Shown in pieces: positions 21,152 through 52,990 of a stretch of DNA of 64,000 bases. Positions within the stretch are counted from its first letter, which is position 1; the number at the start of each line of letters is the position of its first letter. The DNA is from Botrimarina mediterranea (GTDB taxonomy: Bacteria > Planctomycetota > Planctomycetia > Pirellulales > Lacipirellulaceae): assembly GCF_007753265.1 (NCBI RefSeq), contig NZ_CP036349.1:4125363-4189362 (forward strand), in the 5' to 3' direction. Below the pieces are notes generated by a model. It was not told the origin of the DNA. It did no database searches and was given only the letters and a program-made list of their open reading frames with translations. The position numbers and the translations under genes are program-made.

Positions 21152-21340
21152 CCGCGGGTGGCGTGACGAATGACACGTTGTTATTTAACTCTGCCGCGGC
21201 TGGGCGAGCTTCTTCGACCGACGCCGTCGGACGACATTTAACGGCATTTCATCGTTTCCCTGCGGGCCAATGCCGTTACACTCACGGTTGCTGGGCCAAC
21301 TAGGCGGCCAGGGGCTAGCTATCGGTTGGGAGACGGTGCG

Positions 21341-26220: not shown

Positions 26221-28542
26221 ATGCCCGTACTCCAAGCTGATTCTCTGCCTCCCGCCCCGATGGACCCCCCCGCGTATCGAGACGCTTCGCTGCCTATCGC
26301 TGAGCGCGTCGCCGATTTGCTTGGTCGAATGACGATCGGCGAGAAGGTCGCGCAGATGACGTGTCTCTGGAACGAGCGGCACACCAAGTTGCTGGGGCCC
26401 GACGGCCGATTCGACCCCGACGTTGCGGGGCGGCATTTTGGTCGCGGCGACGGCCTTGGTCAGATCGGCCGGCCGAGCGACGCCGCCGGGGGGGCGAAGC
26501 CGGGGCTCGTCCCCGCCGAATCCGCCACAGAGTCCAACGTCATCCAGCGATGGTTCATCGAACACAGTCGGCTGGGCATCCCGGTGATGTTCCACGACGA
26601 GGCGCTCCACGGCCATGTCGCCGTCGGCGCGACGAGCTTCCCCCAGCCGATCGGGCTGGGAGCGACCTTCGATCCCGATTTGGTCGAGAGGCTCTACCAA
26701 ATGACGGCGGCCGAGTCGCGCTGCCGGGGCATCCATCAGGCTCTCGGACCGGTCGTCGATGTGGCCCGCGATCCCCGCTGGGGCCGTGTGGAGGAGACCT
26801 TCGGCGAGGACCCTCACCTCGTCAGCGAGCTGGGGGTCGCCGCGGTGCGTGGCCTGCAAGCGGGCCTCGGCGAGGGCCGCGGCGTGGTCGCGACGCTGAA
26901 GCATTTCGCCGCTCACAGCCAACCCGAGTCGGGCAACAACTGCGGGCCGGTCAGCGTTTCCGAGCGGCACCTCCGAGAAACCTTCCTCACCCCGTTCGAA
27001 CGCGCCATCCGGCTCGCCGACGCACGGAGCGTGATGGCGTCGTACAACGAAGTCGACGGCGTCCCGTCGCATGCCAGCAAGTGGCTGCTCGGCGCCGTGC
27101 TGCGTGGTGAATGGGGGTTCCGGGGATTCGTTGTTTCGGACTACTACGCGATCAGAGAGCTTGCCGAACGGCCCGAACTCTACGGGCATCACGTGGCCGA
27201 GGATGGGCTCCATGCCGCTGTGCTTGCGGTGCAGGCCGGGGTCAACGTCGAACTCCCCGAGGCAGACTGCTACCGCGAATTGCCGGCCGCGTTGGAGGCG
27301 GGGCTCGTCAAAGAGTCCGAACTCGACGCGCTCGTGGCGCCGCTGCTGGCGATGAAGTTTGAGTTAGGCCTCTTCGAGAACCCCTACGTCGATGAGTCGG
27401 CCCCGCCGACGATCGTTGGCGCCGCCGCGCATCGAGAGCTCGCCCTCGAAGCGGCCCGCAAGACCGTGACGCTGCTTGAGAACGACGGGATTCTCCCGCT
27501 TCGGATCGAGTCCCTCCGGACGATCGCCGTGATCGGACCGAACGCGGACCGCCCCCTGCTGGGCGGGTACAGTGGCCGGCCCGCCGCGGTCTCGACCGTG
27601 TTGCAAGCCATTCGGGAACGCGTCGGTGGCTCGGCCGAGGTGCTACACCACGAGGGGTGCAAGATCACCGTTGGCGGCAGCTGGTGGGAGGACGAAGTCG
27701 TCCCGAGCGACCCCGAGCAGGATCGCCGCTCGATCGCCGAAGCGGTCCGCGTCGCGCAGCTAGCCGATGTCGTTTTGCTCGTCGTCGGCGGCAACGAGCA
27801 GACCTCTCGGGAAGCGTGGATGTCCAACCACCTGGGGGACCGCACGAGCCTCGAACTCTTCGGCAGCCAAAACGACTTGGTGAACGCCTTGGCCGAGACC
27901 GGCAAGCCGATCGTCTCGGTGTTGTCCAATGGGCGCCCCTTGGCGGTGGCGAATTTGGCGTCGAAGAGCGCAGCGCTGCTTGAGGTTTGGTACCTGGGCC
28001 AAGAAGGGGGGCGCGCCGTCGCCGAGGCGATTTTCGGCGACTACAGCCCCGGCGGGAAACTCCCGGTGACCATCCCGCGGTCGGTTGGGCACCTCCCGGC
28101 CTACTACAACTACCGCCCCTCGGCTCGCCGCGGGTATTTGTTCGACGACGTGACGCCGCTCTACCCCTTCGGGTACGGCCTCAGCTACGCCCGGTTCGAG
28201 TTTTCGGCGCCACGCCTGTCGTCGGAGCGGATCGGAGTTGATCAGGCCGTCACCGTTTCGGTCGATCTCACCAACGTGAGCGACCGCCACGGGGACGAGG
28301 TCGTGCAGGTCTACGTACGCGACCTCGTCAGCAGCGTGACACGGCCCGTCAAAGAATTGAAGGCGTTCCAGCGGGTGACGCTTGGACCCGGCGAGACGCG
28401 CAGCGTGTCGCTTGAGTTGACGCGGGAGAGCTTCGCCTTTTGGAATATCGACACGCAGTTCGTTGTCGAGCCGGGTGATTTCGAGGTGATGGTCGGGCCG
28501 AGCTCTGCCGACCTCCAGACCGTCCGACTAACGATCGAGTAA
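26221..28542 (+). CDS. Glycoside hydrolase family 3 enzyme (beta-glucosidase/xylosidase type)
   Basis: A 773-residue GH3 enzyme with the usual three parts: the TIM-barrel (about 15-370), the alpha/beta sandwich (about 395-600), and a C-terminal fibronectin-III-like domain (about 660-770). The barrel shows LGPVVDVARDPRWGRVEETFGEDP, LKHFAAHS, VMASYNEVDGVPSHAS and the nucleophile Asp307 in FRGFVVSDYYA. The N-terminus (MPVLQADSLPPAP) is not a signal peptide, so unlike its neighbours it should act in the cytoplasm, on oligosaccharides brought in. It is most like GH3 exo-acting beta-glycosidases; beta-xylosidase would fit the GH43 neighbours. Confidence 0.93.
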   Translation: MPVLQADSLPPAPMDPPAYRDASLPIAERVADLLGRMTIGEKVAQMTCLWNERHTKLLGPDGRFDPDVAGRHFGRGDGLGQIGRPSDAAGGAKPGLVPAESATESNVIQRWFIEHSRLGIPVMFHDEALHGHVAVGATSFPQPIGLGATFDPDLVERLYQMTAAESRCRGIHQALGPVVDVARDPRWGRVEETFGEDPHLVSELGVAAVRGLQAGLGEGRGVVATLKHFAAHSQPESGNNCGPVSVSERHLRETFLTPFERAIRLADARSVMASYNEVDGVPSHASKWLLGAVLRGEWGFRGFVVSDYYAIRELAERPELYGHHVAEDGLHAAVLAVQAGVNVELPEADCYRELPAALEAGLVKESELDALVAPLLAMKFELGLFENPYVDESAPPTIVGAAAHRELALEAARKTVTLLENDGILPLRIESLRTIAVIGPNADRPLLGGYSGRPAAVSTVLQAIRERVGGSAEVLHHEGCKITVGGSWWEDEVVPSDPEQDRRSIAEAVRVAQLADVVLLVVGGNEQTSREAWMSNHLGDRTSLELFGSQNDLVNALAETGKPIVSVLSNGRPLAVANLASKSAALLEVWYLGQEGGRAVAEAIFGDYSPGGKLPVTIPRSVGHLPAYYNYRPSARRGYLFDDVTPLYPFGYGLSYARFEFSAPRLSSERIGVDQAVTVSVDLTNVSDRHGDEVVQVYVRDLVSSVTRPVKELKAFQRVTLGPGETRSVSLELTRESFAFWNIDTQFVVEPGDFEVMVGPSSADLQTVRLTIE

Positions 28543-28614: not shown

Positions 28615-30231
28615 TTACTCCGTCGTCGATGTGAGTGTGTCGTCGATGTGGAAGTAATCGAAGTCGGCGTGCCCCCCGGCCGCTTTCGTGGCGAAGTTGA
28701 AGAGGCCGAAGCGGTAGCCCATGAAGTGGGGGAGGGTGTAGCGCATCGTGAGGCCATCGCCGATCGGAGTCCACGACTCGCCGTCCAAGCTGTAGGAGAA
28801 GTGGGCTGCGTCGGCGCGATCGCGGAAGTCGCACGTCGCTCGGAGGTAGACCCGCTCTTGGGCGAGCGGCATCGACTCGACGACGCGCACCGTGGGCCCG
28901 TCGGTGGGGTTGCGCTCCGCTCCACGGCGCTGTGGCGCCGCGCCGCCTTTGACCATGACGACCCTGCGTTGGTCTCCGACCACCTCAACGCCGACAAAGC
29001 CGTAGTTCTGCTGCAACAGGCAGAGGCCGGCCGCGTCGCCGTCGCGCATGCCCGCGGTATCCAAGGAGATGGTCCCCGTGCACTCGGGCCCGATGGTGCG
29101 TTGCGTGAGCGTATTGCGCGCCGCGACGAGGCTCTCGTCGAGACGCGACGTCGTGAGACGCAGATAGCCGGGGCGATCCGTCAGCGACCAGTGCTGCGGG
29201 TCCGGGTTGTGGTTCCATTGCCACACCAGCGGGAGCGCGGGGTCTCCCTCGGTGCGATCGAACTCGTCCGAATCGACGACGCCCGGTATCAGCCCCTTGC
29301 TCGCCGGCAGGTCGAGCTGCATCGGCGTCTTGCCGTCAACGCCGAGGACGGGCCAGCCCTCTTCCCACGTCACGGGGACGAGGTACGGGATGCGGCCGAC
29401 GGCGCCGTGGTCTTGGAACAAGTAGGCGTACCAGTCGCCGCCTGCCGTTTCGATCAGGCCCCCCTGAGCGACGCCTTGGTCCTGGAACGCGACCCGGCCT
29501 TCGTAGGGGCCTTCCAGTTTGTCGGCACGGTGGACGAGCACGGTCCGCATCCCGCCCCGCGGCCAGACGATGTTGAACAGATAGAACTTGCCGTCGACCT
29601 CGAACAGCTGGCTCCCCTCGGCATTCAGCATGATGTCGTCGCCCGCCGGCGCGCTGGCGTTCTCGATGATCACCTTGTTGAGGCCGCCTTCCTTGATCCC
29701 GCTGAAATCGGGCCGCAGCTCGGTGAGCCGCAGAGCGCCGGCGCCCCACAGCATGTAGACCCGACCGTCGTCGGCGAAGTAGAGCGAGTGGTCGTGCAGC
29801 GAGGGCGTGAACGAACGCCGCTCCCAGGGCGTCGTCTCGATGTCGGGAGTGCTGAAGACGTACGTCTGGTTCGTCGTGGCGCAGAACGTGGTGACGTAGT
29901 ACACGCCGTCGTGATGGCGGAGGCTGCTGGCCCACGAGCCCCGGCCGTAATCGCTCTCCCCGTTCTCCAGCCGCAACGCGTCGGCGTCGCCCAGTGTGTC
30001 GTAGGCGTAGTTGAGCAGTTCCCAATTGACGAGGTCCTTGGACTTCATCAGCGGAAGCCCGGGACTCATGTGCATCGTCGTGCTGCTCATGTAGTACGTG
30101 TCGCCAACGCGGATCATCGCCACGTCGGGGACATCCGCGAACAGAATCGGATTGGCGGCTCGCTCGGACCGAGCGTAAGGAGCTACCGCGACGACGAGCG
30201 CGGCGACGTGCGTAAGGAGTAACCGTCTCAT
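28615..30231 (-). CDS. Secreted GH43 family glycosidase with C-terminal beta-sandwich
   Basis: A 538-residue protein with signal peptide (RRLLLTHVAALVVAVAPYARS). The five-blade propeller of GH43 shows the base Asp in FADVPDVAMIRVGDTYYMSS (D33/D36), the middle Asp in HDHSLYFADDGRVYMLWG, and the acid Glu205 in NAEGSQLFEVDGKFYLF. From about residue 350 a concanavalin-like sandwich (VWQWNHNPDPQHWSLTDRPG, YSLDGESWTPIG) follows, as in GH43 beta-xylosidase/arabinofuranosidase subfamilies with that extra domain. It probably releases xylose or arabinose outside the cytoplasm. It converges with the GH3 gene, 72 nt apart. Confidence 0.88.
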   Translation of the reverse strand: MRRLLLTHVAALVVAVAPYARSERAANPILFADVPDVAMIRVGDTYYMSSTTMHMSPGLPLMKSKDLVNWELLNYAYDTLGDADALRLENGESDYGRGSWASSLRHHDGVYYVTTFCATTNQTYVFSTPDIETTPWERRSFTPSLHDHSLYFADDGRVYMLWGAGALRLTELRPDFSGIKEGGLNKVIIENASAPAGDDIMLNAEGSQLFEVDGKFYLFNIVWPRGGMRTVLVHRADKLEGPYEGRVAFQDQGVAQGGLIETAGGDWYAYLFQDHGAVGRIPYLVPVTWEEGWPVLGVDGKTPMQLDLPASKGLIPGVVDSDEFDRTEGDPALPLVWQWNHNPDPQHWSLTDRPGYLRLTTSRLDESLVAARNTLTQRTIGPECTGTISLDTAGMRDGDAAGLCLLQQNYGFVGVEVVGDQRRVVMVKGGAAPQRRGAERNPTDGPTVRVVESMPLAQERVYLRATCDFRDRADAAHFSYSLDGESWTPIGDGLTMRYTLPHFMGYRFGLFNFATKAAGGHADFDYFHIDDTLTSTTE

Positions 30232-30513: not shown

Positions 30514-31899
30514 CTAGCGTTCGAATCGCCAAAGATCGACGTTCGGAAGGCGATCCCCATCGCCGACGAACTTGAGCCGCAAGTCCTGAACGCCCTTGAC
30601 GCCAGAAACGTCGCACGAGACTTCTTGCCACTTATTCCACCCGCCGGTGTTGCCCACGTCGCAGGTCCCGAGGAGCTTGCCGTCGTCGCCTCCCAAGTGG
30701 ACCTCGATCTTGCCGCTGGCGCCGTCGCTCGCCACCCGGGCCATGAACTGGCTCGGGCCCTCATCGCCGAAGTTGACGCCGACGAGCTCGACCCAATCGC
30801 CGCTCTGGAGATCGGTGAGCGCAATGCCGGCTTCAACGGGTTCGGTTTCGACGCCGTGCTGGGCGTGGAAAGTCTCGGCCTCCACCGTCTCGTAGGGATC
30901 GAGATGGCCGACTTGAGCGACGCCGTCCTCGGTGTAGGTCACCGGCTCGATGGCGCCGTCTTCGGTGAATCGCATCTCTTCGATGGCGAGATTACGGCGG
31001 AAGCCGGTGGGGATGCCGGCCGCTTTGGCGACGACGCGGTTGTGATAGACGTGGAACCAGCGGTCTTTGAAATGGAACTGCGCGGCGTGGTTGTTGTCGT
31101 TATTGATCGGCGGTTGCTTGGCGACAATGCCGCCGTACTCGAAGCCCTCGATCGGATGGTCGCCGGTCATGTAGTCGATCCGCATCTCGGCGCGGGGCGT
31201 TGTCGAGTAGGTGAAGTAGTACTTGCCGTCGTGTTTGAATACCCACGCCGCCTCGAAGAAGTTGGGGGCCTTCATCTTGATCACGTCGCCATCGAGGCTG
31301 ATCATGTCGCGATTCAATTTCGCGACGCGGACGTTGTCGTCGCCGTTGCCGCCGAAGTAGATGTACGCCTGGCCGTCGTCGTCGATGAAGACGCCCGGGT
31401 CGAAGAGCCACATCCGTTCGGCCGGCTGGACGCCCGGCGTGCCGTGGTTGATGAGGTCCTTGCCCAGCGGGTCGGTGAAGGGGCCGGTCGGCTTGTCGCT
31501 CACCGCGACGCCGATGTTCGCGCCGCCGTTGCCGAAGTAGAGGAAGTAATTGCCGTCCCGCTCGATCGCCGCGGGCGCCCAGGTCTTCTTCGCCCAGGTG
31601 GTGCTGTCCTCGGCGCGGAAGACCGATCCGTGGTCCGTCCAGTTCTTCATGTCGCTGCTCGAGACGCAGACGACGTTGGGGATGTTGTACGACCCCTCGA
31701 CCGGGCTCTCATCGTCGTTCGAGCAGTAGATGTAGACGCGGTCGTCGGTCACCAGACAGCTCGGGTCCGCCAAGTACCGGTGCGACACGATCGGGTAGTC
31801 GGCCTGACACGCCGTGGCGAGCAAGAGCGCTGAAATTATGGCGGACGTGGCGCAGCGGGAGTTGTGTAGCATGGCGTTCGACGGATAACGATGAGGCAT
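30514..31899 (-). CDS. Secreted GH43 glycosidase with CBM6 domain
   Basis: A 461-residue protein. A signal peptide (SAIISALLLATACQA, with a Cys that could make it a lipoprotein although the lipobox is weak) is followed by the GH43 propeller: RYLADPSCLVTDDRVYIYCSND (base Asp45), WAPAAIERDGNYFLYFG, LFDPGVFIDDDGQAYIYFGG, and NFFEAAWVFKHDGKYYFTYS with the acid Glu. A CBM6 domain begins near residue 335 (VEAETFHAQHGVETEP, GDWVELVGVNFG, VDLWRF). The arrangement matches arabinoxylan-active GH43-CBM6 enzymes. The start at 31899 could also be the ATG at 31872; neither has a strong ribosome site. Confidence 0.88.
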   Translation of the reverse strand: MPHRYPSNAMLHNSRCATSAIISALLLATACQADYPIVSHRYLADPSCLVTDDRVYIYCSNDDESPVEGSYNIPNVVCVSSSDMKNWTDHGSVFRAEDSTTWAKKTWAPAAIERDGNYFLYFGNGGANIGVAVSDKPTGPFTDPLGKDLINHGTPGVQPAERMWLFDPGVFIDDDGQAYIYFGGNGDDNVRVAKLNRDMISLDGDVIKMKAPNFFEAAWVFKHDGKYYFTYSTTPRAEMRIDYMTGDHPIEGFEYGGIVAKQPPINNDNNHAAQFHFKDRWFHVYHNRVVAKAAGIPTGFRRNLAIEEMRFTEDGAIEPVTYTEDGVAQVGHLDPYETVEAETFHAQHGVETEPVEAGIALTDLQSGDWVELVGVNFGDEGPSQFMARVASDGASGKIEVHLGGDDGKLLGTCDVGNTGGWNKWQEVSCDVSGVKGVQDLRLKFVGDGDRLPNVDLWRFER

Positions 31900-31923: not shown

Positions 31924-34845
31924 TCAGAGACAACAGTGGTTGCGCTGGCGTCGTAGCATGCCAGCGCCCAACAGCGGCAGCAGCAACACGGCTCCGGTCA
32001 GCTCGGGCGTCGATTGGGAAGAAATTAGACTGATCGTCGCGCCATAGTTGCTGCTCCAGAGCTGGTAATCCAAGAGCGTGACTTCGCCATCGCCGTCGCC
32101 ATCGGCGGAATCGTACGCTGCCAAGCCTGTGGTCCCGAGGTTGTCGCGCCAGACGGTATAGTCCGCCGCGTCGACCACGCCATCGCCGTTGTAGTCGCCG
32201 GGCAAGAGGGGCGCCACCATCGCGTATCCGATCCCATCGAACCAAGTTCGTGAGGCGTTCCCGTTGAGCGTCTGCCAGTCGTCGATGAACACTTCAATGC
32301 CACCGCCCGTCTCGACGCTCTCCCGACCCAAGTAGGCGCGGTAGAGCAAGAGGTCGTTGTTGTTGGCGGCGACCGTCACGGCGTCATCGAACTGCTCTTC
32401 GAACTGATCATCTGGGGCGTGTTGCGAGCCGTACTTGCGGAAGTCCAGCAGGTTGTCGCTTTCGAGTCCTGCGAGCAGACGCCAGTCCTCGTCATTGTCG
32501 CTCCAGAAGTAGGCGAACACGTCGTAGACGCCTACCTCTATGCCGGAAGCAGTGGTTCTCAGCGTAGGGGCGTTCTCGGCGCCCGACTCGTTCGAAGTCA
32601 GCACGCTGCCGCCGTTGCCGAAGCCGGTGCGCTCGTGCCAGAGGTTGTCCGTCGCCCCGGCGGTGCTGCTGGCGGAGGTCGGGGCGATCGGCGAACCATC
32701 CATTCGGGCGGTGTTCGTCGCTGTCGCGTCCACATAAGTGACGAGCCTGCTCGGCCCGATGTCGTCTTGATCGATGATCCCGACGACAGCCGCATTGATG
32801 TCGTGGGCCGACGTGTAGTTGCCGCGGAACCAGAACACCGTTTGCGGCCCCACGCCGTGCGTGTCGGGCGCAATCGGTCGGAGGTTATCGACCGAGGAGT
32901 TCTCGGTGACCGCGTTCCAGTTCCATTGCGACCCGTCGTACTTGCCCCGGTAGATCTCGTGATTGGCGGTCTCCGTACTCCCGGTCGCGTCGCGCGGATC
33001 GATGTACGTCGAGATGTAGAGCGTGTTCTCATCGCCAGGGATCAGCGCCCCGATGCCTGTGTAGTCTTGCTCCGGGCCATACAGACGATCCCCCATCCGG
33101 GCAATCTCCTGGTTCTCCCAACTGGAGGTCGCGGGGTTCCAGCGGGCGAAGTGCAGGCGATGGTCGATCGGGTTGCTCGTGCTACCGTCGTTGGTCAGGC
33201 CGTCGGGGTTCCACCGCGACGTGTAGAGCAGCATCAGATTGCCGTCAGAGTCGAGCGCTGCGTCGGACGTCCAGAGGCGGTTGGTCCCTTGCCCTAACGG
33301 GTCGGGCGCTGCGACCGGCGTAAAGTCGGTGACGTCCGGCACGGCGCCGGCGCCGGCGCCGGCGGTCACGTTGCTGTCGAACAGATTCTCGTCGATGACA
33401 TTGCCCAGCAAGTCGAACGTCTGGCCCCCTTCGATATAACCCGCAAAGATGCTGTTGTTGTAGTTGCGAGGGTGGGTCTCGGTGGTGGCGAAGTAGATGC
33501 GATCGACGCCGTTCGAGACGTACTTCGGGTACGCCGAGTACCCCTGCGCCGCGCTCTCCAGAAGTTGCCCTCCCCACTCGACGCTATTCGTCTCGGGGTC
33601 GTAGCGGAGCACATTGGGCATGTTCTGCGCGGCGCCGTTGGTCGATAGCAGGCCGTAACTGCGGGAGATGTTGTAGACCTGATCTTCTTCCGAAAGGTAG
33701 AAGAGATTGTGGTAGCTCACGTTGGCGAACTCGGCGGTCCCGCCGGGATGCGTGTTGGCGCCGGGGACGTTCTCGAACCAGTTGTAGAGTTGCTCCTCCG
33801 ACCAGGACCTGCTGTCGCCGGGGTTTCTGGAGACACGGTAGCGAGTGAACTCGTCGCCGAGGCCGCCGTTGTTCCCGTGGTTGGCGTACATCGCCAAGTA
33901 GCGTCCGTCGGGCAGCACCAAGAGGGCGCCGACGTTGTGGTCGTCGTTCTGGATGGCGGGGTTGGTTGTCTGGTTCGACAATCGCGTCACGACGCGACGG
34001 CCCGTTGCGGGATCGAAATCGACTACGTCCACGTTGCCCGGGTAGCCGCCTCCCTGCACGGTCTCGTCGAAGCCGACCGAGTTGACGAGCACGCGGCCAT
34101 TGTTTGGATTGACGATCGCGCGCTCGTCGGTGTACCAGGTCCAGTTGCCGTCGCTATCGAACTGGATCAGATTGCCGCGCACGATGTCGGTGATGGGCGC
34201 CGGCCCTGAGGGGGGCAGGAGGCTGGCGGAGATGGCGTCGAACGCGATGTTTCGCTGCGACCCCACGCCGGTCCGCTCGGCGCCGAGCGAGACCCGCAAC
34301 CGCGCTGCGCCGGACGGGACCGCAGCCGCCTGCATGTCTTCGACATGGACCCACCCGCCTCCGGCTTGGGTGTCGCCGGCGTAACCCGCCCCGAGCATGG
34401 CGCCGCCCGCGTCGTAGAAGTCGTACGAGATCGTTCCGAGGTCGTTCGTGTCGATGTCGAAGTAGGCGTACGACAGCCCCAAGGACCAATCGCCCGCGCC
34501 GATCTGAGAACCGTAAGGCGTCAGGTCGATGTCCTGGTAAATCCGCGCGGCGTTCGCGTCGCCGCCGATCAGCGGGCCCGACCCGCTGTAACCGCCGTAG
34601 GGCCAGTTCGCCGAGATGAACTGATTGCTGCCCGCGTAGCCACCACCGGGATCGGCCCCCGCCAGCGAGCTGTCGCCAACCCAGAAGGGATTGAACCCGT
34701 CCGCCACACTCCAACCGGCAGGAATCGAAAGCGGAGCGCCCGACTCGAAGCCGCCATTGATCACGCTGAGGGCGATCGGACTTTGGGCCGCCGCCGACGT
34801 GAGCGTCAACAGGCACGCCAGCGTGAAACCGACGCTTCTCGTCAT
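31924..34845 (-). CDS. Secreted BNR-4-like protein with dockerin (possible polysaccharide lyase)
   Basis: A 973-residue exoprotein. A signal peptide (MTRSVGFTLACLLTLTSAAAQ) precedes a jelly-roll domain (about 28-215). Next is a seven-blade-like BNR-4 domain (about 220-680) with GNWTWYTDERAIV, NDDHNVGALLVLPDGRYLAMYANH, SYHNLFYLSEE, YSAYPKYVSNG, and RIYFATTETHP. These Trp/His/Tyr blocks resemble ulvan-lyase-type (PL24/PL25) and other BNR-4 proteins, so a lyase or hydrolase role is possible but not certain. A second sandwich (about 690-870) and a dockerin-like unit [20 protein letters not shown] (near 882) follow. The tail (TPELTGAVLLLPLLGAGMLRR) is a PEP-CTERM-like sorting signal. ATG 34845 opens the signal peptide. 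Confidence 0.75.
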   Translation of the reverse strand: MTRSVGFTLACLLTLTSAAAQSPIALSVINGGFESGAPLSIPAGWSVADGFNPFWVGDSSLAGADPGGGYAGSNQFISANWPYGGYSGSGPLIGGDANAARIYQDIDLTPYGSQIGAGDWSLGLSYAYFDIDTNDLGTISYDFYDAGGAMLGAGYAGDTQAGGGWVHVEDMQAAAVPSGAARLRVSLGAERTGVGSQRNIAFDAISASLLPPSGPAPITDIVRGNLIQFDSDGNWTWYTDERAIVNPNNGRVLVNSVGFDETVQGGGYPGNVDVVDFDPATGRRVVTRLSNQTTNPAIQNDDHNVGALLVLPDGRYLAMYANHGNNGGLGDEFTRYRVSRNPGDSRSWSEEQLYNWFENVPGANTHPGGTAEFANVSYHNLFYLSEEDQVYNISRSYGLLSTNGAAQNMPNVLRYDPETNSVEWGGQLLESAAQGYSAYPKYVSNGVDRIYFATTETHPRNYNNSIFAGYIEGGQTFDLLGNVIDENLFDSNVTAGAGAGAVPDVTDFTPVAAPDPLGQGTNRLWTSDAALDSDGNLMLLYTSRWNPDGLTNDGSTSNPIDHRLHFARWNPATSSWENQEIARMGDRLYGPEQDYTGIGALIPGDENTLYISTYIDPRDATGSTETANHEIYRGKYDGSQWNWNAVTENSSVDNLRPIAPDTHGVGPQTVFWFRGNYTSAHDINAAVVGIIDQDDIGPSRLVTYVDATATNTARMDGSPIAPTSASSTAGATDNLWHERTGFGNGGSVLTSNESGAENAPTLRTTASGIEVGVYDVFAYFWSDNDEDWRLLAGLESDNLLDFRKYGSQHAPDDQFEEQFDDAVTVAANNNDLLLYRAYLGRESVETGGGIEVFIDDWQTLNGNASRTWFDGIGYAMVAPLLPGDYNGDGVVDAADYTVWRDNLGTTGLAAYDSADGDGDGEVTLLDYQLWSSNYGATISLISSQSTPELTGAVLLLPLLGAGMLRRQRNHCCL

Positions 34846-34904
34846 GACGCTTTTACACGGTGGTTGAAGGCATGAGCGGACGATCGTTGGTCGTTTCACC
34901 TGGA

Positions 34905-37900
34905 TCACAAAGCCACCGCCAAATCCGCGGCTAACTCATCGAGCCATGAACTCTCTCCTTCGCCGGGCTCATCGCCCGATTCATCTGCTAGAGAGATAGT
35001 GACTCTGTCAGCGTCAAAGGCTTCGTCCCGTTGTAACGAAAGCAGAAGCAGCGTCTGCGTGTCGGTGATGGTCGGCGTCGTGACGATCCGGGCGATCCCG
35101 CCGCTGCCGGTGATGGCGCTGGCTTCGAGGCTGTTGAGGCTTTGTCCGAAAGCGTTGACGGCGCTGATCACATAGAAGTAGGCCGTGCTCGACGCCAAGC
35201 CGCTGTTGCTAAAGTTGGTCGAGGTGACGCCCGTGGCGACGACTTCGTACGGCCCACCGCTGACAGTGGAACGGTAGACGTTGTAGCTCGTGGCGCCGGA
35301 GGACGGCGTCCACGCCAGGTTGATCTGCGAACTGGATGCGCTGGTCGCCGTCAAACCGCTCGGCGCCGACGGCGCGAGGCTTTCAGCCGGGCCGAAGCCC
35401 GTGGGCGCCGGCAAGGCGTCGAGTTGGAGGACGAACTTATCGAGGCGGGTTCCGTTCTCACGGTAAGCGATCTGGAGCACATGGTCGCCGGCCCCGAGTG
35501 CGTTGACCTGCGCGTTGTCCGTCGAGAACCAAGCCCCGATTCCCGAGCGGTTGTTTTCGAGGTTCCAGCCCCCGTTATCGATCCGCCAGAAGAACGAGTC
35601 GTCCTCGGCGGAGTTGGTCATCATCCGGAACCAGAACCGGTAGTTGCCCGCCGTCGAGACGTTGAAGCTGTAGCTGACGATGAACTCGTCGGTCGTTCCC
35701 GGGGGCGCGTTGCCGGTGTGGTTGTAGGCGGGATCGACTTCGATCGACGCGCCGCCCGAAGCCGAGGTGTCGCTCTGGATTGTCCAGCGGTCGCCGACAA
35801 CGCCACTTTCCGTCTCCATCGAGACGACGCCGCCTACCTCGACGAAGAGCCGCTCGGTCTTCGCCAGCGCCTCGGCGCTGATCAGGCTGGCGCCGCCGGG
35901 GCCGACGGCGCTGACGACGTAGTAGTAGTCGCCCGGCGCGGGGGCGGGGTCGCTGAAGCTAGTCCCGGTGACGCCGGTCGCAATCGTTACATAAGGGCCC
36001 CCAGCGTTCGGCGCACGGCTGACGTTGTAGGCGGTGGCGCCCGGCGAGGGATTCCAGGAGAGCTCCACCCTGCGAGCGGGCGTGCTGCCGCCGTAGTTCG
36101 CGGCCCAGAACGCGTGGTCATTGGAATCGACAACCCCGTCGCCATCGCCGTCGGCGCCTTGGCCGGGCGTCGCTACGACGGTGTTGACGTTGTCTCGCCA
36201 GACGGCGTAGTCGGCGGCGTTGACGACGCCGTCGCCGTTGTAGTCGCCGGGCGTCGCCTCTTCGACGCCCCACGTTGCGGTTAGCCCCGTTGGGAAGGAG
36301 GGCGAGCCCGGCGCGACGATCGCCCACTGCTGGGCGGCGTCGTTCGAGGTTTCGAGGAACTGAGCAAAATCACCAACGACGGTCGAGCCGCCCGCCATTC
36401 CCACGCTGTAGCCTTGATCGACGACGACAATGTTAAAGAAACCATCGTCGGCGGGCGAAAGGACGAACCGCCGCGCCGACGCGTTGTCAAAGCCCCACGG
36501 CGTCAACCCCAGCGGGTCGCTCCCTTGCTGCGAGAAGACTGGGGCGTAGGTGTTGCTCCAACTCCAATTGCTGGCGCCTACGTTGAGGATGCTGTACTGG
36601 CCGGCGCCGCGGTGAACGAGGCTCCACTGCTCGCTAGTGGACCCGGTGTACTCGTTCTGCACCACCACGTCGCTCCCCTGCGACGTTCCGCGCTCGAGGG
36701 CCAAGCCGCTGTTACGATTGATCAGCTTGTAGACGCCGTTCGGGAGCGAGCCCGTCGCCGACGGCGTCAGCTCGATCCAGTTGAGGTTGAAGCCGCCGGT
36801 GACGACCTCCAGACGAAGCTTCTGCCTCCCCGGTTCGAGGTAGACCACTCTCTCGACGGTCGTCCAGTTCTGGTTGCCGCCCGTAGCGGGCAACTGCCAG
36901 ACGCCGGTCTTGTCGTCGTCGTGCATCAAGACACGCACGGCTCCGCCAACAGAACTCGCCGTGCGCAGCCGGAGCGTGTAGTACCCCGGCTCGCGGACGT
37001 TGAGCGTGTACTCGAGCCATTCGCCCGACACGGTATCGGTGACGTTGAAGTCGCCGAAGCGGTCGTCGGTCAGTTCGATATCGACCCCCACGTCGGGCCG
37101 CAATGCGCCGCCTAGGTTGACGCCGTCGGCGTCACTGTAGGCGACGCCCTCGGCGCCCGTGTCGAAGTGTTCCGCTTCGATGCGGAGCGTTCCCGAGAGG
37201 CCAGTCGTGTAGCGCGGCAGACCGCCGTTGCTGTAGACGCCTCGCTGGGCCGGGAACGCGCCGAAGTCGGGCGTCCATGAGAGGCCCGCCCGCTCAATCA
37301 GGTCGCTGTAGGTCCCGGGAGCGAAGATCGAGGAGGAGATGAAGTTCGGCGGGATGTGCTGAAACGTCAGCCAGGAAATACCCAGCCGCTCGTACTCCGA
37401 AATCTGCTCCACCACGAGGCCGTGGTCCAAGGAGCCCCACTCCTCGCCGGCCACCTCGGTCATGAACACCGGGTAGCCGGCGTTGATGATCGCTTCCACC
37501 GCGGGGATGGTCGCCATGCCCGCGTAGCCGTGGAACGCGACGCCCGTGTTCGACCAGTCGATCGACGCCGCCTGCGAGACCGTGTTGATGTCGGCGATGG
37601 CCGACGCCCCGTCGCCCAGCACCGCGATCGAGAACAGCAGGATCGGCGTCTCTGGCGCCAGCGAGCGGATCAGCGTGTAGGCGTCGGCCTGCATCTGCAG
37701 CGCCGGCGCTGGGTAGGGCGTTGACCAGGCGTGAGGCTCGTTCTGGACCTCAAAGATGACGTGGGTCTCGTCCTTGTAGCGATCGGCGTACAAGGCCCAG
37801 AAGTCCATCACATAGTCGTTATTGAAACTCCCGTTGTTGCCGCCGTTGCCGATGGTGAGCACGAGGTACAGGCCCTCGTCGCGGGTCATCTGCACCATCT

Positions 37901-40900
37901 GGTCGATGCGATTCATCGCGTAACCCGGCGCCGTCCCCGAACCGGGCACGCCCGACCTGTAGTCAGGGTCGAACACCTCGCCGTAGAGGTGGATCGAGTT
38001 GGCGCCGTAGTTCTTGATCTGTTGGATGTTGGCGAGCGGCGGTGGATTGCCCCATTCGGTCGAGGCGAACGGCCCCCGTAAGAGGGCGCCGTTGTCGGCA
38101 ACGAAAGTTGTCCCCGTGGTGTTGAGCGTCGGCCTGCCGCGCGGCGCCGTAATCGCCGCCTCCACACCGTCTTCTAAAGCGGCGGCGACGATCCGCCCCA
38201 CCCCTTCCTCGACCGGCGTGACGGTGAGCTGATCGAGGTTGCCGCCGCTGGAACCGGTCGCCGTCAGCCGCACGGTGTTGACGCCCGCGACGAGGGCGAC
38301 GACCTCCGCGACCGACGTGTAAGCCCCCCAACCGCCCGTCGGCGCAAAGCTTAAGCCGCTGTTGACGATCGCGCCGTTGACGGTCAGTCGCAGCGGCCGG
38401 TCTCCCGAGGCGCCGCTGGCGTAACGAAAGGCCAACTCGTAGGCGCCCGCCGCCGGTGTGTCGAAGGTCCACTCGACGTAGTCCCCGGTCGCGCTAACGA
38501 AGTCGGCGTACCCGCTGCCGGTGAAGCCTGCCCACTCGGTGCCGACGACGGCGCCCGAGAGCAACGCGTCTTCGGCCTCGAGGACGAGCGGGCCCGCCGC
38601 CAGGGTCGCGCTCGACTCGGCGCTGAAGGGACTCTCGCCGGCGCCATTGATCGCGCTAACGCGGTAGTGGTACGTCGCGCTGGTCTCGAGGCCGGCATCG
38701 CTATAGCCGTTCGCCGGCGCGCCCGCGGCGATCAACGTGTACGGCCCACCGGCGACCGCCGATCGGTAGACGTTGTAGCCCGCGGCGCCAGGGGCGGCCG
38801 TCCAGGTGAGGTCGATTTGGGCAGCGGTTGCGGCCGTCGCAGACAGGTAGGTTGGTGCGGCTGGCGCCGGGTCGTTCGCGTTGGGCAGCGTCGCCAACAA
38901 TTGGGGACGCGAACCGGGCGCCACGCTCTCGCTCGAATAGAAGCCGACAAAGTTGTTGCCGACGTTCGGCATCGACAGCCGCAGCGACAGCACGCCGTCG
39001 TTCGCCGCTTCGCTGAGAACGGCGTTGGTGATGTCGATCAACTTCGGCTGACCCACCACGAAGCCCGACACAACCGCCAACACGTTGCCCGAACCCGATG
39101 GCTGGTTGTTCCAGGTCGTGCCCGACTCGCTCCAGCTGTCGTCCGTCATCAGCTCGACCCACATCGGGTCGCCGCTGTCGATCTGGAACGGCGTCAGCGA
39201 CAGCAGCACGCTCGACGCGTTGGCGAGATCGCTGACGTCGAACCGCAAGAAGGCGTTGCGGGTAAAGCCGGCGCCGCCGTCGTTCTTGACAACGATGGTG
39301 GTGTCGTTACCGAAGTTCGCGTTGACGCTACCGCCGTCGCGCACGAAGGTGTCCGCCACCGGTTCAAGCGTCGCCGACGCGGGCGTCGAGACGCTCGCCT
39401 CGGCGCTGGCGGGGCCCTCGCCGACGTCGTTGACCGCGGCGACGACGTAGTGATAGGTCGAGTCGGCGAACAACCCGTTGTCGGTGAACAAGGTCCCCGC
39501 GACGCCGATCGCCACCGTGACGTAAGGGCCGCCGCTGCTGGTCGCTCGCTTGACGGTATAGCTCTCGGCGCCCGGCACGGCCGACCACGACAGGGCAGTC
39601 GCGTTGTAAGCCAAGGCGACCGCCGACAAGCCGCTTGGCGCCGCCGGGGGCTGGGTCGTCTTGGTGATCGCGCTGACTTCGACGCTGGGCGTGCTGGAGC
39701 CGTTCGCATTGACGGCTACGACGACGTAGTGGTAGCCGGTGAGTTCTTCGAGCCCTTCGTCGCTGTAGTCAGTCGCCGTCACCCCAGTCGCGACCGTGGC
39801 GTAGGGGCCGCCGCTACTCGTACCGCGGAGGACGGTGTAGCTGTCGGCGCCCGGAGTGGGCCACCAATCCAGATCGACCTGCGAGGCGGTGACGCCCGTC
39901 ACCGCGACTCCGACCGGCATGAAGGGCGCGTCGCCCACGGTCCAGGTCGATGCGCCGACGACCTCGAGGTGGTCGATGTTGGGCAAGCCGTTCGCGCTGG
40001 TCGCCACAAGCTCGACCGCCGAGACGCCCGCCGGCACGCTGGCGTAGGCCGTGACATATCCCCAATCGGAGAGCGAACCCGTCGGAGCGAAAAGGATGTC
40101 GGAAGCCACCGTCGCGCCGTTCACCACCAGGTCGGCGGTTTGCGGGGTCGTCCCGGCGTAGCGGAACGTGAACGACTTGACGGTGGAGGCGTCGAAGTCG
40201 AGCACCCAATCGACGCTGGCGCCCGCGGCGTTTTGGGCGTCGGCGTAGCCGGCGCCGCTGTAGCCTGAATGGGTCGCGCCGATGACGCCGTCCACGCCGG
40301 CGAAGCCGGGCGCGCCCTCCTCGATCACCAATCCGCTGCCGTAGGCGGTGGGGACCAGCACGAGGTTATCGAGGTAGAGGCTGGCCGCCCCGTTCGAGCG
40401 GGCGCGGAGTTCGATCGTGTTTTGGCCCTCAGCGAGCGCGATATCGAGCGTTGTAACGGCCCAGTCGCTGGTCGAGGCGGTTGGTGTGAACATCGGCGTA
40501 CCGGCGAAGACGCCGTTGACGTACACATCGATTGTCGAGACCGTCGCGCCGGTGACGGAGTACCGCGCCTGGAGCTCGAACACGCCCTCTTGGAGGACGT
40601 TGAAGGTGTCCCGCACCGCGGCCGACGGGTTCGTCCCGAAATTCAGGTAGCCCTGCCCCGTGTAGTTGCGGACCCCGCCCCACTGGCCGGCCGTAGTGAC
40701 GCCGCTGATGTTCTTGTAGTCGAACACCTCCGCCTCGTGCTGCAGCGCGCCCGTGTAGGCCATCGGCCGATCGGGGGCGACGATCGTCGCCGGCGTGAAC
40801 TCGGTCAGGCGGTCGGTCGCAGCGCCCGCCGCGTTGATGGTGATGTCGATCGCGCCGTTGTGCTCGACCGTCAGGATAAACACCCCGTCGGTCCAGTCGC

Positions 40901-43424
40901 TGGTGACGACGCTCGCTTGGTGGCTCGCCCGGTCGGCGTAGGACCAACTCGGTTCGGTCGTCGCGCCGTAAATTTTGATCGTGTCGGTCTTTAGCCCGGT
41001 GTCGATGACGTTGTCGTAGTTGTTGAGATAGAAGGTCAGGCTGTCGGCGTGTTCTTTGACGATCCCCGTGGTGTACTGAGAGAAGGTCAACTCCATCCGG
41101 TCGCTGGTGTTGTACTTCAGCGGGATGCTGGCGCTGGCCGTCTGACCCGTCTTGAACGGGTTGTAGACGACCCACCCGTTCTCGTGCCGGCCGGCGTAGA
41201 GGTCGCCCGTGGACTCTTCGGGGAAGAGCGCGTTTAAGTCGGCGACCTTGTCGCCGACGGTGGGCCAGAGGGCGTTGTAATCGGAGCGGTTGACCTGGAC
41301 CTCGAACGACTGGGCGAGGTCGTCGTCCAGGTCGAACACCGTCGGGATCGTGGGGTAACGGCCCGACGACTTGAAGAAGCTCTTGTTATTCTCGTAGCTG
41401 CCGTCCATGGCATAGAGCCCGTCGAACAGCGTCTGCGGCGAGGCGTACACCTGCTCGGGCGTGCCGGTGTCGACGTCGTTGACGACCACGACCTTGGTCC
41501 GCTCGATCACCTCTTCACGGGTCGGGATACGCACCGTCCCGTCGAGGACCTTGCGGAACAGATCGAAGCTGACGTTGTCGAACTGCGAGAACGTGTCCCA
41601 GTTGCGCTGCGTGTAGCCGTCGCCCGCCGGGATGCGGCCCGTCTCGTAGAAGTTCTGCGTCCAGATCAGCTCGGGGCCATCGACCACGGTCTGGCCGGTG
41701 AGCATGGCGTGCTCGAGTTGCGGCGCGGCACCGGTCACGAGCGTGAAGTTCTCGTGGTTCCCGTTGGCGTCGGTCCAGCCCGTGTCGTCGTAGCGGATGC
41801 CGTAGTTGCCGCTGTAGCCCGACAGGTAGGCCCCCAGCGTGACGCTCTCCATGTCGAGCTGGTACGACTGCTGGGTGTACTTCTCGAAGAGGATGTAGTT
41901 CTCCGTGTAGTCGCGGGCCGCCTGCGCGAACTCGGGCGCCCGCTTCATCATCGCGATCGGATTGATGTTCTCGTTCCACTGGTTGCCGCACCAGCTGACG
42001 ATCAAATAGCCGCCGTACTGGTTGCTCAACTCCAGCAGGTTCGCGAAGTGGTCCATCCGGTCGGTCCACTGCGCCGACAGCGGGTCGTTCGGGTCGTCGA
42101 ACCCCCAGAACTGCTCGGCATAGCTGAAGCCGATCAGGTTCGGGTAGTCGCGGTAGAACTCCTCGTAGACCGAGAGGTCGAAATCCGAGAACTGAGCGAA
42201 CCCGCCGCTGGAGTGTTGGATCACCGCCCACATCTGGTTCTCGGCGCACACCCGCAGCCACGACTTGGCGATCTCGTAGCCGTACTCGGCGACCTGGAAC
42301 TGGCTCGTCTCGGCGTCGTGGCTGATGGACAGCGAGATGTTCATCACCACATAGGGACGCAGGTCCTCCGGGATCAGGTCGATGATCTTCTGTGGGTCGG
42401 CGTAGTTCCATGTGTCGATGTGCACCAACCACATCGGCTGCTCCGACGAGATCGGTCGCCGCAGGTTGCTGTCCGCCGGGCTCTCGTGGTTCAGCTGCGT
42501 GACGGTGAGCTGATCGAACGCGCCGCCGCCGAGTCCCGTCGTCGTGAGCCGGATCGTATTGGCCCCGGCGCTTAATAAAGTCGAGAGCGTGACTTCCTTC
42601 CAATTCGAGTCGTCGCCGGTCGTGGCGAAGATGAACTCGGGGTTGATCAGCTGCCCGTTGACGGTCAGCTCAAGCGAGCGCGAAAGCGTCGAGTCGAGCG
42701 CATAGCGGAAGCCGAGTTGGTGCAAGCCGTCCGCGGCGGCGTTGACCGTCCATTCGATCGAGCCCCCGGTCGCCGAGGCGTAGCTCACGTAGCCATCGCC
42801 GAAGAACCCCTCGCCTGACGTCGCCTCGACCGCGCCGGAGAGCGCGGCGTCCTCGGCCTGCAATACCCGCGGCGGCGTCGCCACGTTGCTGATCGCGCTC
42901 TCGACGCCGTCCACGATCGGGGTCACGACGTAGTAGTGCTCGGCCGCGGGGGGCGCCGGGTCGCTGAACCGTTCGCCCAGCACGCCTGTCGCAATCGTTA
43001 CGTACGGGCCATCGGGCGTTGTCGAGCGTTGGATGTCGTAGCTGCTCGCGCCGGGCACAGCCTCCCAGGAGAGCTCGACGCGTTGCGTGACGGAGTTGGC
43101 GCCGTAGTTGGCGGCCCAGAAGGCGTGGTCCTGCGCATCGACTTTGCCGTTGCCGCTGCCGTCGGCGCCCGCGCCGGGCGTCAGCGTGGCGCCGAGGGCG
43201 TCGCGCCACACGGTGTAGTCCGCCGCGTTGACGGCGCCGTCCCCGTTGTAGTCGCCGAAGACCGCCGCCTCATCGCTCCAGGCAGCCGACAGCTGCGTCG
43301 ACGTCGCCGACAAGACCAGCCGCTGTTCGAGCGGCTCGAAGTGGGGCCGCTTATGGGGCCGCTTGTGGGGGTAGGCGTACGCGCCGACCCGTCGGGGTCG
43401 AGTGTTTCGTGACCGCTTTGCCAT
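34905..43424 (-). CDS. Giant multimodular exo-enzyme: GH98-like plus GH5-like domains with many CBM/FN3/ricin/dockerin modules
   Basis: A 2839-residue protein. Order, by approximate residue: leader with PHKRPHKRPH and FEPLEQRLVLSA (1-40), a planctomycete exoprotein N-terminus; dockerin-like (57-110); FN3 (115-183); CBM6/35-like (187-312); GH98-like catalytic domain (330-860; WLVHIDTWNYADP, AVIQHSSGGFAQFSDF, FSYAEQFWGFDDPNDPLSA); two CBM-like sandwiches (894-1025, 1031-1160); FN3 pair (1168-1350); DNRLRE/CBM96-like (1350-1515; TFVRDGGSVNANFGND); FN3 (1520-1610); CBM (1611-1735); GH5-like barrel (1768-2065; acid/base Glu in EVQNEPHAW, nucleophile Glu in MTEVAGEEW); CBM6 (2077-2225); ricin-B lectin (2227-2370); second dockerin (2390-2450); FN3, sandwich and FN3 (2452-2775). 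GH98 enzymes are endo-beta-galactosidases or endo-xylanases; GH5 is mostly beta-1,4-glycanase. It is probably cell-surface or secreted; no classical signal peptide is seen. Confidence 0.82.
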   Translation of the reverse strand: MAKRSRNTRPRRVGAYAYPHKRPHKRPHFEPLEQRLVLSATSTQLSAAWSDEAAVFGDYNGDGAVNAADYTVWRDALGATLTPGAGADGSGNGKVDAQDHAFWAANYGANSVTQRVELSWEAVPGASSYDIQRSTTPDGPYVTIATGVLGERFSDPAPPAAEHYYVVTPIVDGVESAISNVATPPRVLQAEDAALSGAVEATSGEGFFGDGYVSYASATGGSIEWTVNAAADGLHQLGFRYALDSTLSRSLELTVNGQLINPEFIFATTGDDSNWKEVTLSTLLSAGANTIRLTTTGLGGGAFDQLTVTQLNHESPADSNLRRPISSEQPMWLVHIDTWNYADPQKIIDLIPEDLRPYVVMNISLSISHDAETSQFQVAEYGYEIAKSWLRVCAENQMWAVIQHSSGGFAQFSDFDLSVYEEFYRDYPNLIGFSYAEQFWGFDDPNDPLSAQWTDRMDHFANLLELSNQYGGYLIVSWCGNQWNENINPIAMMKRAPEFAQAARDYTENYILFEKYTQQSYQLDMESVTLGAYLSGYSGNYGIRYDDTGWTDANGNHENFTLVTGAAPQLEHAMLTGQTVVDGPELIWTQNFYETGRIPAGDGYTQRNWDTFSQFDNVSFDLFRKVLDGTVRIPTREEVIERTKVVVVNDVDTGTPEQVYASPQTLFDGLYAMDGSYENNKSFFKSSGRYPTIPTVFDLDDDLAQSFEVQVNRSDYNALWPTVGDKVADLNALFPEESTGDLYAGRHENGWVVYNPFKTGQTASASIPLKYNTSDRMELTFSQYTTGIVKEHADSLTFYLNNYDNVIDTGLKTDTIKIYGATTEPSWSYADRASHQASVVTSDWTDGVFILTVEHNGAIDITINAAGAATDRLTEFTPATIVAPDRPMAYTGALQHEAEVFDYKNISGVTTAGQWGGVRNYTGQGYLNFGTNPSAAVRDTFNVLQEGVFELQARYSVTGATVSTIDVYVNGVFAGTPMFTPTASTSDWAVTTLDIALAEGQNTIELRARSNGAASLYLDNLVLVPTAYGSGLVIEEGAPGFAGVDGVIGATHSGYSGAGYADAQNAAGASVDWVLDFDASTVKSFTFRYAGTTPQTADLVVNGATVASDILFAPTGSLSDWGYVTAYASVPAGVSAVELVATSANGLPNIDHLEVVGASTWTVGDAPFMPVGVAVTGVTASQVDLDWWPTPGADSYTVLRGTSSGGPYATVATGVTATDYSDEGLEELTGYHYVVVAVNANGSSTPSVEVSAITKTTQPPAAPSGLSAVALAYNATALSWSAVPGAESYTVKRATSSGGPYVTVAIGVAGTLFTDNGLFADSTYHYVVAAVNDVGEGPASAEASVSTPASATLEPVADTFVRDGGSVNANFGNDTTIVVKNDGGAGFTRNAFLRFDVSDLANASSVLLSLTPFQIDSGDPMWVELMTDDSWSESGTTWNNQPSGSGNVLAVVSGFVVGQPKLIDITNAVLSEAANDGVLSLRLSMPNVGNNFVGFYSSESVAPGSRPQLLATLPNANDPAPAAPTYLSATAATAAQIDLTWTAAPGAAGYNVYRSAVAGGPYTLIAAGAPANGYSDAGLETSATYHYRVSAINGAGESPFSAESSATLAAGPLVLEAEDALLSGAVVGTEWAGFTGSGYADFVSATGDYVEWTFDTPAAGAYELAFRYASGASGDRPLRLTVNGAIVNSGLSFAPTGGWGAYTSVAEVVALVAGVNTVRLTATGSSGGNLDQLTVTPVEEGVGRIVAAALEDGVEAAITAPRGRPTLNTTGTTFVADNGALLRGPFASTEWGNPPPLANIQQIKNYGANSIHLYGEVFDPDYRSGVPGSGTAPGYAMNRIDQMVQMTRDEGLYLVLTIGNGGNNGSFNNDYVMDFWALYADRYKDETHVIFEVQNEPHAWSTPYPAPALQMQADAYTLIRSLAPETPILLFSIAVLGDGASAIADINTVSQAASIDWSNTGVAFHGYAGMATIPAVEAIINAGYPVFMTEVAGEEWGSLDHGLVVEQISEYERLGISWLTFQHIPPNFISSSIFAPGTYSDLIERAGLSWTPDFGAFPAQRGVYSNGGLPRYTTGLSGTLRIEAEHFDTGAEGVAYSDADGVNLGGALRPDVGVDIELTDDRFGDFNVTDTVSGEWLEYTLNVREPGYYTLRLRTASSVGGAVRVLMHDDDKTGVWQLPATGGNQNWTTVERVVYLEPGRQKLRLEVVTGGFNLNWIELTPSATGSLPNGVYKLINRNSGLALERGTSQGSDVVVQNEYTGSTSEQWSLVHRGAGQYSILNVGASNWSWSNTYAPVFSQQGSDPLGLTPWGFDNASARRFVLSPADDGFFNIVVVDQGYSVGMAGGSTVVGDFAQFLETSNDAAQQWAIVAPGSPSFPTGLTATWGVEEATPGDYNGDGVVNAADYAVWRDNVNTVVATPGQGADGDGDGVVDSNDHAFWAANYGGSTPARRVELSWNPSPGATAYNVSRAPNAGGPYVTIATGVTGTSFSDPAPAPGDYYYVVSAVGPGGASLISAEALAKTERLFVEVGGVVSMETESGVVGDRWTIQSDTSASGGASIEVDPAYNHTGNAPPGTTDEFIVSYSFNVSTAGNYRFWFRMMTNSAEDDSFFWRIDNGGWNLENNRSGIGAWFSTDNAQVNALGAGDHVLQIAYRENGTRLDKFVLQLDALPAPTGFGPAESLAPSAPSGLTATSASSSQINLAWTPSSGATSYNVYRSTVSGGPYEVVATGVTSTNFSNSGLASSTAYFYVISAVNAFGQSLNSLEASAITGSGGIARIVTTPTITDTQTLLLLSLQRDEAFDADRVTISLADESGDEPGEGESSWLDELAADLAVAL

Positions 43425-52862: not shown

Positions 52863-52990
52863 AAGCCTTGGTTGGTTGAGAGCCCAGCCGGTCGCGAAAG
52901 TGGATCACCCCTTCTGTGCCTCAGGTGGCTCGGCATTGGGGGTCGCAAGCCGCTTCCATCTCGCACGGCGGGACGGCAGCAGCACGCTTC

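Follow-up and report, generated by a model that had tools for sequence, protein, structure and literature searches.

The minus strand of a 64,000-nucleotide stretch of Botrimarina mediterranea DNA (positions 4,125,363 to 4,189,362 of contig NZ_CP036349.1, hereafter the window) contains, at 34905-43424, an ATG-initiated open reading frame that encodes 2839 amino acids without interruption. The open reading frame, the Pfam matches and the PDB matches agree in placing a GH98 and a GH5 barrel on one chain, as the original prediction, made from the letters alone, had proposed. The product is very likely an exported single-chain dual endo-xylanase directed at heavily decorated (glucurono)arabinoxylan. 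The fusion itself is confirmed, whereas the accompanying description of the two glycanases as unrelated is not borne out, as the barrels belong to different families yet both to xylan-cutting clades. A frameshift or assembly artefact merging two genes was ruled out by the equivalent 2909-residue stop-to-stop frame in an independent genome, that of Botrimarina colliarenosi Pla108 (locus L004).

Both GH98 family models match well above their cut-offs (PF08306, 243 bits with a cut-off of 23; PF08307, 43.8 bits with a cut-off of 25). A PDB sequence search with residues 316-1023 returned 9h6f, 9h6h and 9h6g as the best solved relatives (E 8.8e-255 to 5.8e-254), which carry the title "Bacteroides ovatus GH98 endoxylanase in complex with arabino-xylooligosaccharide" and, for 9h6g, "Inactive ... 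E361A". Species, family and E361 suggest that these entries are BACOVA_03433. In contrast, the blood-group galactosidases of the family reach at best E 2e-15, and the identity of the GH98 region is 51% to the B. ovatus endoxylanase versus 16-18% to the blood-group GH98s listed, a difference on which a galactosidase-type GH98 was rejected. The alignment with the 9h6f chain extends for about 708 residues over the barrel, the C-terminal domain and a CBM6-like end; the first ~177 residues of the B. ovatus chain have no match in the fusion protein, and the solved chain lacks a GH5 domain. The key catalytic residues of BACOVA_03433, Glu361 and Asp467 (PMC4491172), are conserved as Glu437 and Asp546, which are invariant in all nine rows of an alignment of relatives from Botrimarina, Bacteroidota and Ruminococcus. 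Among the xylans tried, BACOVA_03433 released large oligosaccharides exclusively from corn xylan, the reducing ends that it creates carry xylose, and its cleavage ceases if another enzyme has first stripped doubly substituted xylose of its O3-arabinose (PMC4491172). The GH98 half belongs, as judged by its relatives, to the xylanase clade and is predicted to be an endo-xylanase that needs decorated xylan.

The GH5 half is matched across three modules, GH5-CBM6-CBM13 (residues 1761-2384), by CtXyl5A of Clostridium thermocellum (5g56, E 5.2e-195 in the PDB sequence search). Given the E values of the GH98 and GH5-CBM6-CBM13 matches, chance is excluded for both halves. Of the 295 query residues aligned within the catalytic module, 163 (55%) are identical to CtXyl5A, and the nine CtXyl5A residues that were mapped are all retained (Glu68, Tyr92, Asn139, Asn170, Glu171, His253, Tyr255, Glu279 and Phe310), the acid/base Glu171 and the nucleophile Glu279 corresponding to Glu1896 and Glu1990. 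Glu68, Tyr92 and Asn139 line the -2* side-chain pocket common to all GH5_34 members, and replacement of any one of them by alanine abrogates CtXyl5A activity (PMC5063996). The GH5_34 members assayed are arabinoxylanases throughout, active on rye, wheat and corn arabinoxylan and inactive on birchwood xylan; one of them was likened to the GH98 xylanase in that both exploit infrequent decorations (PMC5063996). The identity to CtXyl5A and the marker residues place the GH5 half in GH5_34, as a predicted arabinoxylanase.

By virtue of their family membership, the two halves may be regarded as two branch-requiring xylan cutters. Both barrels appear to fall in clades whose assayed members cleave β-1,4-xylan only if it is decorated, which points to one substrate rather than two and is in keeping with the decorated polymer that had been anticipated as the likely target.

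It is unlikely that only one barrel matters, the other having lost its activity and contributing binding or structure instead. Some fused glycoside hydrolase domains have lost activity, and the chain contains more accessory than catalytic modules. However, the loss of a catalytic Glu or Asp, looked for as an observation that would overturn the assignments, was not seen: Glu437, Asp546, Glu1896 and Glu1990 are retained. Comparison of the two Botrimarina species also speaks against this explanation, since the GH98 barrel (96% identity) and the GH5 barrel (89%) have the lowest ratios of nonsynonymous to synonymous substitution rates (dN/dS) of 20 segments, 0.038 and 0.093, values that serve for ranking only as dS is near saturation in several segments. 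The GH98 C-terminal domain follows (91%, 0.104); four FN3-containing segments after residue 1161 range from 0.21 to 0.54, and the second dockerin-like repeat is at 0.33. Both barrels are under purifying selection and look functional.

The modules of the protein are listed together with the neighbouring genes in Table 1. Pfam families were counted by the whole-protein cut-off of each family, and some pieces were rescored alone.

Table 1. Modules and selected residues of the GH98-GH5_34 fusion protein, and genes around it (window coordinates).
Feature	Residues	Coordinates	Strand	Evidence
Whole gene, GH98-GH5_34 fusion	1-2839	34905..43424	-	Open reading frame, Pfam and PDB sequence matches
Leader with LEPR-XLL-like motif (...FEPLEQRLVLSA)	1-45	43290..43424	-	NF012209
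Dockerin-like repeat 1	57-101	43122..43256	-	PF00404, 30.1 bits
CBM35	187-315	42480..42866	-	PF16990, 31.2 bits; kin 2w47, 2vzp/q/r, Xyn30D CBM35
GH98 catalytic barrel	318-631	41532..42473	-	PF08306, E 5.1e-72; 9h6f/g/h
Glu437 codon, = catalytic Glu361 of B. ovatus GH98 (E361A inactive in 9h6g)	437	42114..42116	-	Alignment
Asp546 codon, = catalytic Asp467 of BACOVA_03433	546	41787..41789	-	Counted along alignment; residue from PMC4491172
GH98 C-terminal β domain	636-890	40755..41519	-	PF08307, E 2.9e-11 at 636-804; within 9h6f match
CBM6-like end of GH98 region	891-1023	40356..40754	-	9h6f chain match 316-1023; PF03422, 21.6 bits, below cut-off 28.9
CBM6/CBM35-like module	1028-1160	39945..40343	-	PF03422, 37.3 bits; kin 2w46, 2w87, 2w3j
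Two FN3 repeats	1161-1348	39381..39944	-	PF00041, 2 stretches
CBM96 (DNRLRE)	1350-1510	38895..39377	-	PF24517, E 2.2e-28; NF033679
FN3	1523-1606	38607..38858	-	PF00041, 35.2 bits
CBM35	1610-1735	38220..38597	-	PF16990; 2w47 E 5.4e-30, 2vzp E 1.9e-26
GH5_34 catalytic barrel	1757-2085	37170..38156	-	PF00150 (Cellulase/GH5), E 1e-16 at 1787-2021; CtXyl5A 5g56/2y8k
-2* pocket, Glu1790, Tyr1814, Asn1864, = Glu68, Tyr92, Asn139 of CtXyl5A	1790, 1814, 1864	37833..38057 (stretch)	-	Alignment; roles from PMC5063996
Glu1896 codon, = acid/base Glu171 of CtXyl5A	1896	37737..37739	-	Alignment; role from PMC5063996
Glu1990 codon, = nucleophile Glu279 of CtXyl5A	1990	37455..37457	-	Alignment; role from PMC5063996
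CBM6 of CtXyl5A-type core	2113-2220	36765..37088	-	PF03422; 5g56, 2y8k
Ricin-type CBM13 of CtXyl5A-type core	2222-2380	36285..36761	-	PF14200, best stretch 2227-2284; 5g56 match reaches residue 2384
Dockerin-like repeat 2	2392-2438	36111..36251	-	PF00404, 34.3 bits
Weak module with GH115_C-like end	2546-2682	35379..35789	-	PF17829, 31.5 bits whole protein, 22.7 piece alone, cut-off 24.1
FN3	2686-2767	35124..35369	-	PF00041
BNR_4 protein with dockerin-like repeat, next gene, downstream		31924..34908	-	PF15892, PF00404
GH43-CBM6, arabinoxylan arabinofuranosidase-like, downstream		30514..31899	-	PF04616, PF03422; nearest 5a8c, 3c7e
GH43 with C2 domain, near GH43-CE protein and HiAXHd3, downstream		28615..30231	-	6mly E 2.1e-224, 3zxj E 5.1e-60
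GH3, β-xylosidase-like		26221..28542	+	7zb3 E 4.5e-185; NF052329 below cut-off
PATR β-strand repeat protein, PEP-CTERM match below cut-off	1-1493	45582-50063		Syntenic with fusion gene in both Botrimarina species

The accessory families named in the original prediction (CBM6/35-like, CBM96, ricin-B, FN3 and two dockerin-like units) all match above their cut-offs, with five CBM6, three CBM35, one CBM96, four fn3, two RicinB and two Dockerin_1 stretches. The number of binding modules, put there at a dozen or more, is reduced to about eight carbohydrate-binding-like modules on the present assignment, of which the CBM6-like end at 891-1023 and the GH115_C-like module are the weaker two (the match of the latter stops at residue 2681); four fn3 and two dockerin-like units come in addition. 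Two further stretches that resemble FN3 (~116-186 and 2456-2545) have no Pfam match, and a short tail follows the last FN3. The two CBM35 modules at 187-315 and 1610-1735 match the 2vzp/q/r sequence at E 3.9e-18 and 1.9e-26, respectively. The title of 2vzr names glucuronic acid, and CBM35s that bind glucuronic acid are among the nearest solved kin of both modules, whose probable role is to anchor the protein to side chains of glucuronic acid. In CtXyl5A the CBM6 and CBM13 are structural supports for the barrel (PMC5063996).

The planctomycete leader claimed for the N-terminus stands in one search and falls short in the other: it scored 21.6 bits against the LEPR-XLL model NF012209 (cut-off 17) in the genome search and 16.7 bits in the protein scan. 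Export by the planctomycete leader route may be inferred from it. Promoter and terminator scans gave no signal exceeding that of shuffled sequences, and four proteins scanned against PHROGs had no match.

Downstream of the fusion gene lie, in order, genes for a BNR_4 protein, a GH43-CBM6 protein, a GH43 protein with a C2 domain and, on the other strand, a GH3 protein; a DUF1559 protein and the PATR repeat protein are encoded upstream. The start of the BNR_4 gene is probably near residue 45, because homology to the B. colliarenosi protein begins there. One of the nearest relatives of the GH43-CBM6 protein, 3c7e, is an arabinoxylan arabinofuranohydrolase, and HiAXHd3 acts on doubly substituted xylose. 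The two GH43 enzymes and the GH3 enzyme appear to be of xylan type and fit an arabinoxylan role. The order PATR, DUF1559, fusion, BNR_4, GH43-CBM6 is conserved in B. colliarenosi, where the four genes other than the fusion are 82-88% identical.

This neighbourhood bears on the possibility that the chain attacks two polymers, with a glycan of marine or host origin (galactan, ulvan or mucin-type) as the target of GH98 and xylan as that of GH5. GH98 members described before BACOVA_03433 were endo-β-galactosidases only (PMC4491172), and B. mediterranea was isolated from coastal seawater (PMC7717034), both of which would favour such a division of labour. Against these stand the 51% identity to the GH98 endoxylanase as opposed to 16-18% to galactosidases, and the xylan-type character of the partner domain and of three neighbours, so that a two-polymer enzyme is quite improbable. 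Blood-group galactan, ulvan and mucin, which had been left open as substrates, are disfavoured accordingly, the GH98 being of the xylanase kind. Least probable of all is that the dockerin-like units make the protein a subunit of a cellulosome-like complex: Dockerin_1 matches do occur twice in the fusion protein, once in the next gene and twice in the protein at 19334-21151, but a cellulosome is unlikely because the genome (5.87 Mb; 5,871,207 bases in 1 contig, 95.4% complete) has zero cohesin matches at E <= 0.001, in a search that gave a match in 1 of 14 control genomes. The surface machine of the original prediction remains putative, with no cohesin in the genome and no match to PEP-CTERM or any other anchor in the fusion protein by Pfam and protein-family model scans.

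As a dual endo-xylanase for one decorated polymer, the protein would work as follows. The GH98 barrel (Glu437, Asp546) would cleave β-1,4-xylan where its substitution is complex and multiple, in the manner of BACOVA_03433 acting on corn xylan, and the GH5_34 barrel (Glu1896, Glu1990) would cleave where the active-site xylose bears O3-linked arabinose or xylose, a side chain that the pocket residues Glu1790, Tyr1814 and Asn1864 would hold. The CBM6 and CBM13 beside the GH5 domain would mainly keep the barrel in shape, and the CBM35s would tether the chain to glucuronoarabinoxylan. The released oligosaccharides could then be debranched and finished by the adjacent GH43, GH43-CBM6 and GH3 enzymes. 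Tentatively, the protein may be a decoration-dependent depolymerase, in which two endo-xylanases with different side-chain demands (complex and perhaps double substitution for GH98, O3 substitution for GH5_34) would break one densely branched glucuronoarabinoxylan molecule into soluble fragments ahead of any debranching, and whose GH98 half, acquired from Bacteroidota, would have been fused to the GH5_34 core in the Botrimarina lineage.

The distribution of the two halves bears on that origin. The architecture was sought in other planctomycetes, as had been suggested, and was found in B. colliarenosi only; no GH98-GH5_34 fusion beyond the two Botrimarina genomes occurs in the genomes sampled, the samples being thin outside the organism's own taxonomic family. 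A GH98 family search matched 2 of the 43 genomes of that family, both Botrimarina. In a phylum sample of 392 genomes it matched two, that of B. mediterranea itself and one in which a 700-residue frame gave a distant match of 41.6 bits. A protein query with the GH98 barrel matched a single genome among 395 of Bacteroidota and a single one among 398 of the phylum to which a Ruminococcus metagenome-assembled genome (MAG) belongs, in each case only the genome on which the sample was centred; these samples are considered thin because the Bacteroidota sample missed three other genomes known to carry GH98. A contig scan with GH98 yielded 16 stretches and 6 loci, with GH5_34 in L004 only; being seeded by short peptides it reaches close kin, missed the B. 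ovatus enzyme and may let distant fusions escape. No GH5_34 match at E<=1e-5 was found in the five genomes carrying the other nearest GH98s. The GH5_34-CBM6 query matched 16 of 384 phylum genomes (the own genome and two others with the whole core, 12 at the CBM6 end and one with a weak 30% barrel match), and the GH5 barrel matched 3 of 43 genomes in the own family, those with the two fusions and a third with a partial match at 38%. The Bacteroidota GH98 proteins of loci L005-L008 are 64-68% identical to the xylanase-type GH98 region (54% for the second copy in L008); their loci and assemblies lack GH5_34 at the threshold given above. In a midpoint-rooted tree of nine GH98 regions, from which B. 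ovatus was left out, the Botrimarina pair lies among the Bacteroidota with bootstrap values of 84-88, below 95. This placement suggests, and does not prove, that the GH98 half was acquired by transfer. Two GH98 genes in tandem were noted in the Ruminococcus MAG (L009, 7569-12151), which has a third copy elsewhere.

Several observations weigh against a dual arabinoxylan-cutting enzyme. AlphaFold, given nine sequences, produced a weak model for the GH98 region (mean predicted local distance difference test score 60.3). The best Foldseek matches of that model have a template modelling score of 0.30 and a root-mean-square deviation of about 25; Foldseek therefore supplied titles and identities but is not taken to prove the fold, and the 51% and 16-18% identities rest on sequence. 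The specificity predicted for the GH98 half is transferred from a single enzyme, and the 55% identity between the GH5 half and CtXyl5A lies at the lower limit of the 55-80% range of GH5_34 (PMC5063996). Neither a GH98 nor a GH5 domain was found in two of the four Botrimarina genomes, and the GH43-C2 and GH3 genes were not found in the surroundings of the B. colliarenosi fusion gene, of which 54 kb were read. The AXHd3-like GH43 would strip the double arabinose substitution that GH98 may need, and the two would therefore have to act at different places or in order. The seawater origin of B. mediterranea is neutral at best, as grass-type arabinoxylan is not an obvious food there. The source of B. 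colliarenosi, wood particles (PMC7717034), is in line with plant-wall food.

What appears to be new is the joining of GH98 with GH5_34; the enzymes themselves are known, the system is not of a new kind, and in other respects the protein resembles an ordinary multimodular plant-wall enzyme. CtXyl5A (CtXyn5A; 5g56, 2y8k, 5la0-5la2) shares the GH5_34-CBM6-CBM13 order and the catalytic and -2* residues, but its chain runs on into Fn3-CBM62-dockerin and lacks a second catalytic domain, whereas GH98 and many modules precede the core in the fusion protein. VbGH5 and AcGH5 combine a GH5_34 core with a second xylan-acting domain, GH43_10 or CE6 (PMC5063996); their partners remove side chains, whereas the Botrimarina partner would be a second endo-type xylanase. 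Two planctomycete frames from a different family of the phylum, L030 (GH43-GH5_34) and L031 (esterase-GH5_34), also have the GH5_34-CBM6-CBM13 core with an N-terminal partner enzyme and lack GH98. The frame at L030 2556-8078 reads GH43-GH43_C2-GH5_34-CBM6-CBM13-LamG-FN3-MAM, a plan that resembles VbGH5, and at L031 346-5457 an esterase-like α/β hydrolase is fused to the core, the contig ending inside the frame. In line with the original prediction, no description of the architecture was found in the accessible literature, CAZy and most subscription papers excepted, and the one paper found to name GH98 together with GH5_34 does not report such a fusion.

Ordinary xylanases make little headway on highly branched arabinoxylan. 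Two rare kinds of enzyme that can deal with it, the xylanases of GH98 and the arabinoxylanases of GH5_34, have been described separately; their joining in this protein offers a direct test of cooperation between two branch-requiring cutters. If the sites cooperate across the ~730 residues that separate the GH98 and GH5 domains, this would be, to our knowledge, the first natural enzyme composed of two branch-requiring endo-xylanases. The fusion is a good enzyme-discovery lead, as a candidate for use on corn or cereal bran, and it suggests that aquatic planctomycetes may be among the organisms that degrade complex hemicellulose of land plants.

The BNR_4 protein (31924-34908; PF15892) may be a new carbohydrate-active enzyme belonging to the arabinoxylan cluster. 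It is 84% identical in B. colliarenosi over residues 45-969, and BNR_4 matches occur in 12 of 324 planctomycete genomes, the own genome included. Neither the single sequence nor a 10-sequence profile found a solved relative (the profile gave two chance matches, E 0.1 and 0.34). Elsewhere in the window, an animal-type haem peroxidase (21326-23200; PF03098, E 1.4e-122) adjoins the 19334-21151 protein with two dockerin-like repeats, and at 51069-54118 a biotin-domain carboxylase is encoded beside the beta subunit of a Na+-transporting oxaloacetate decarboxylase.

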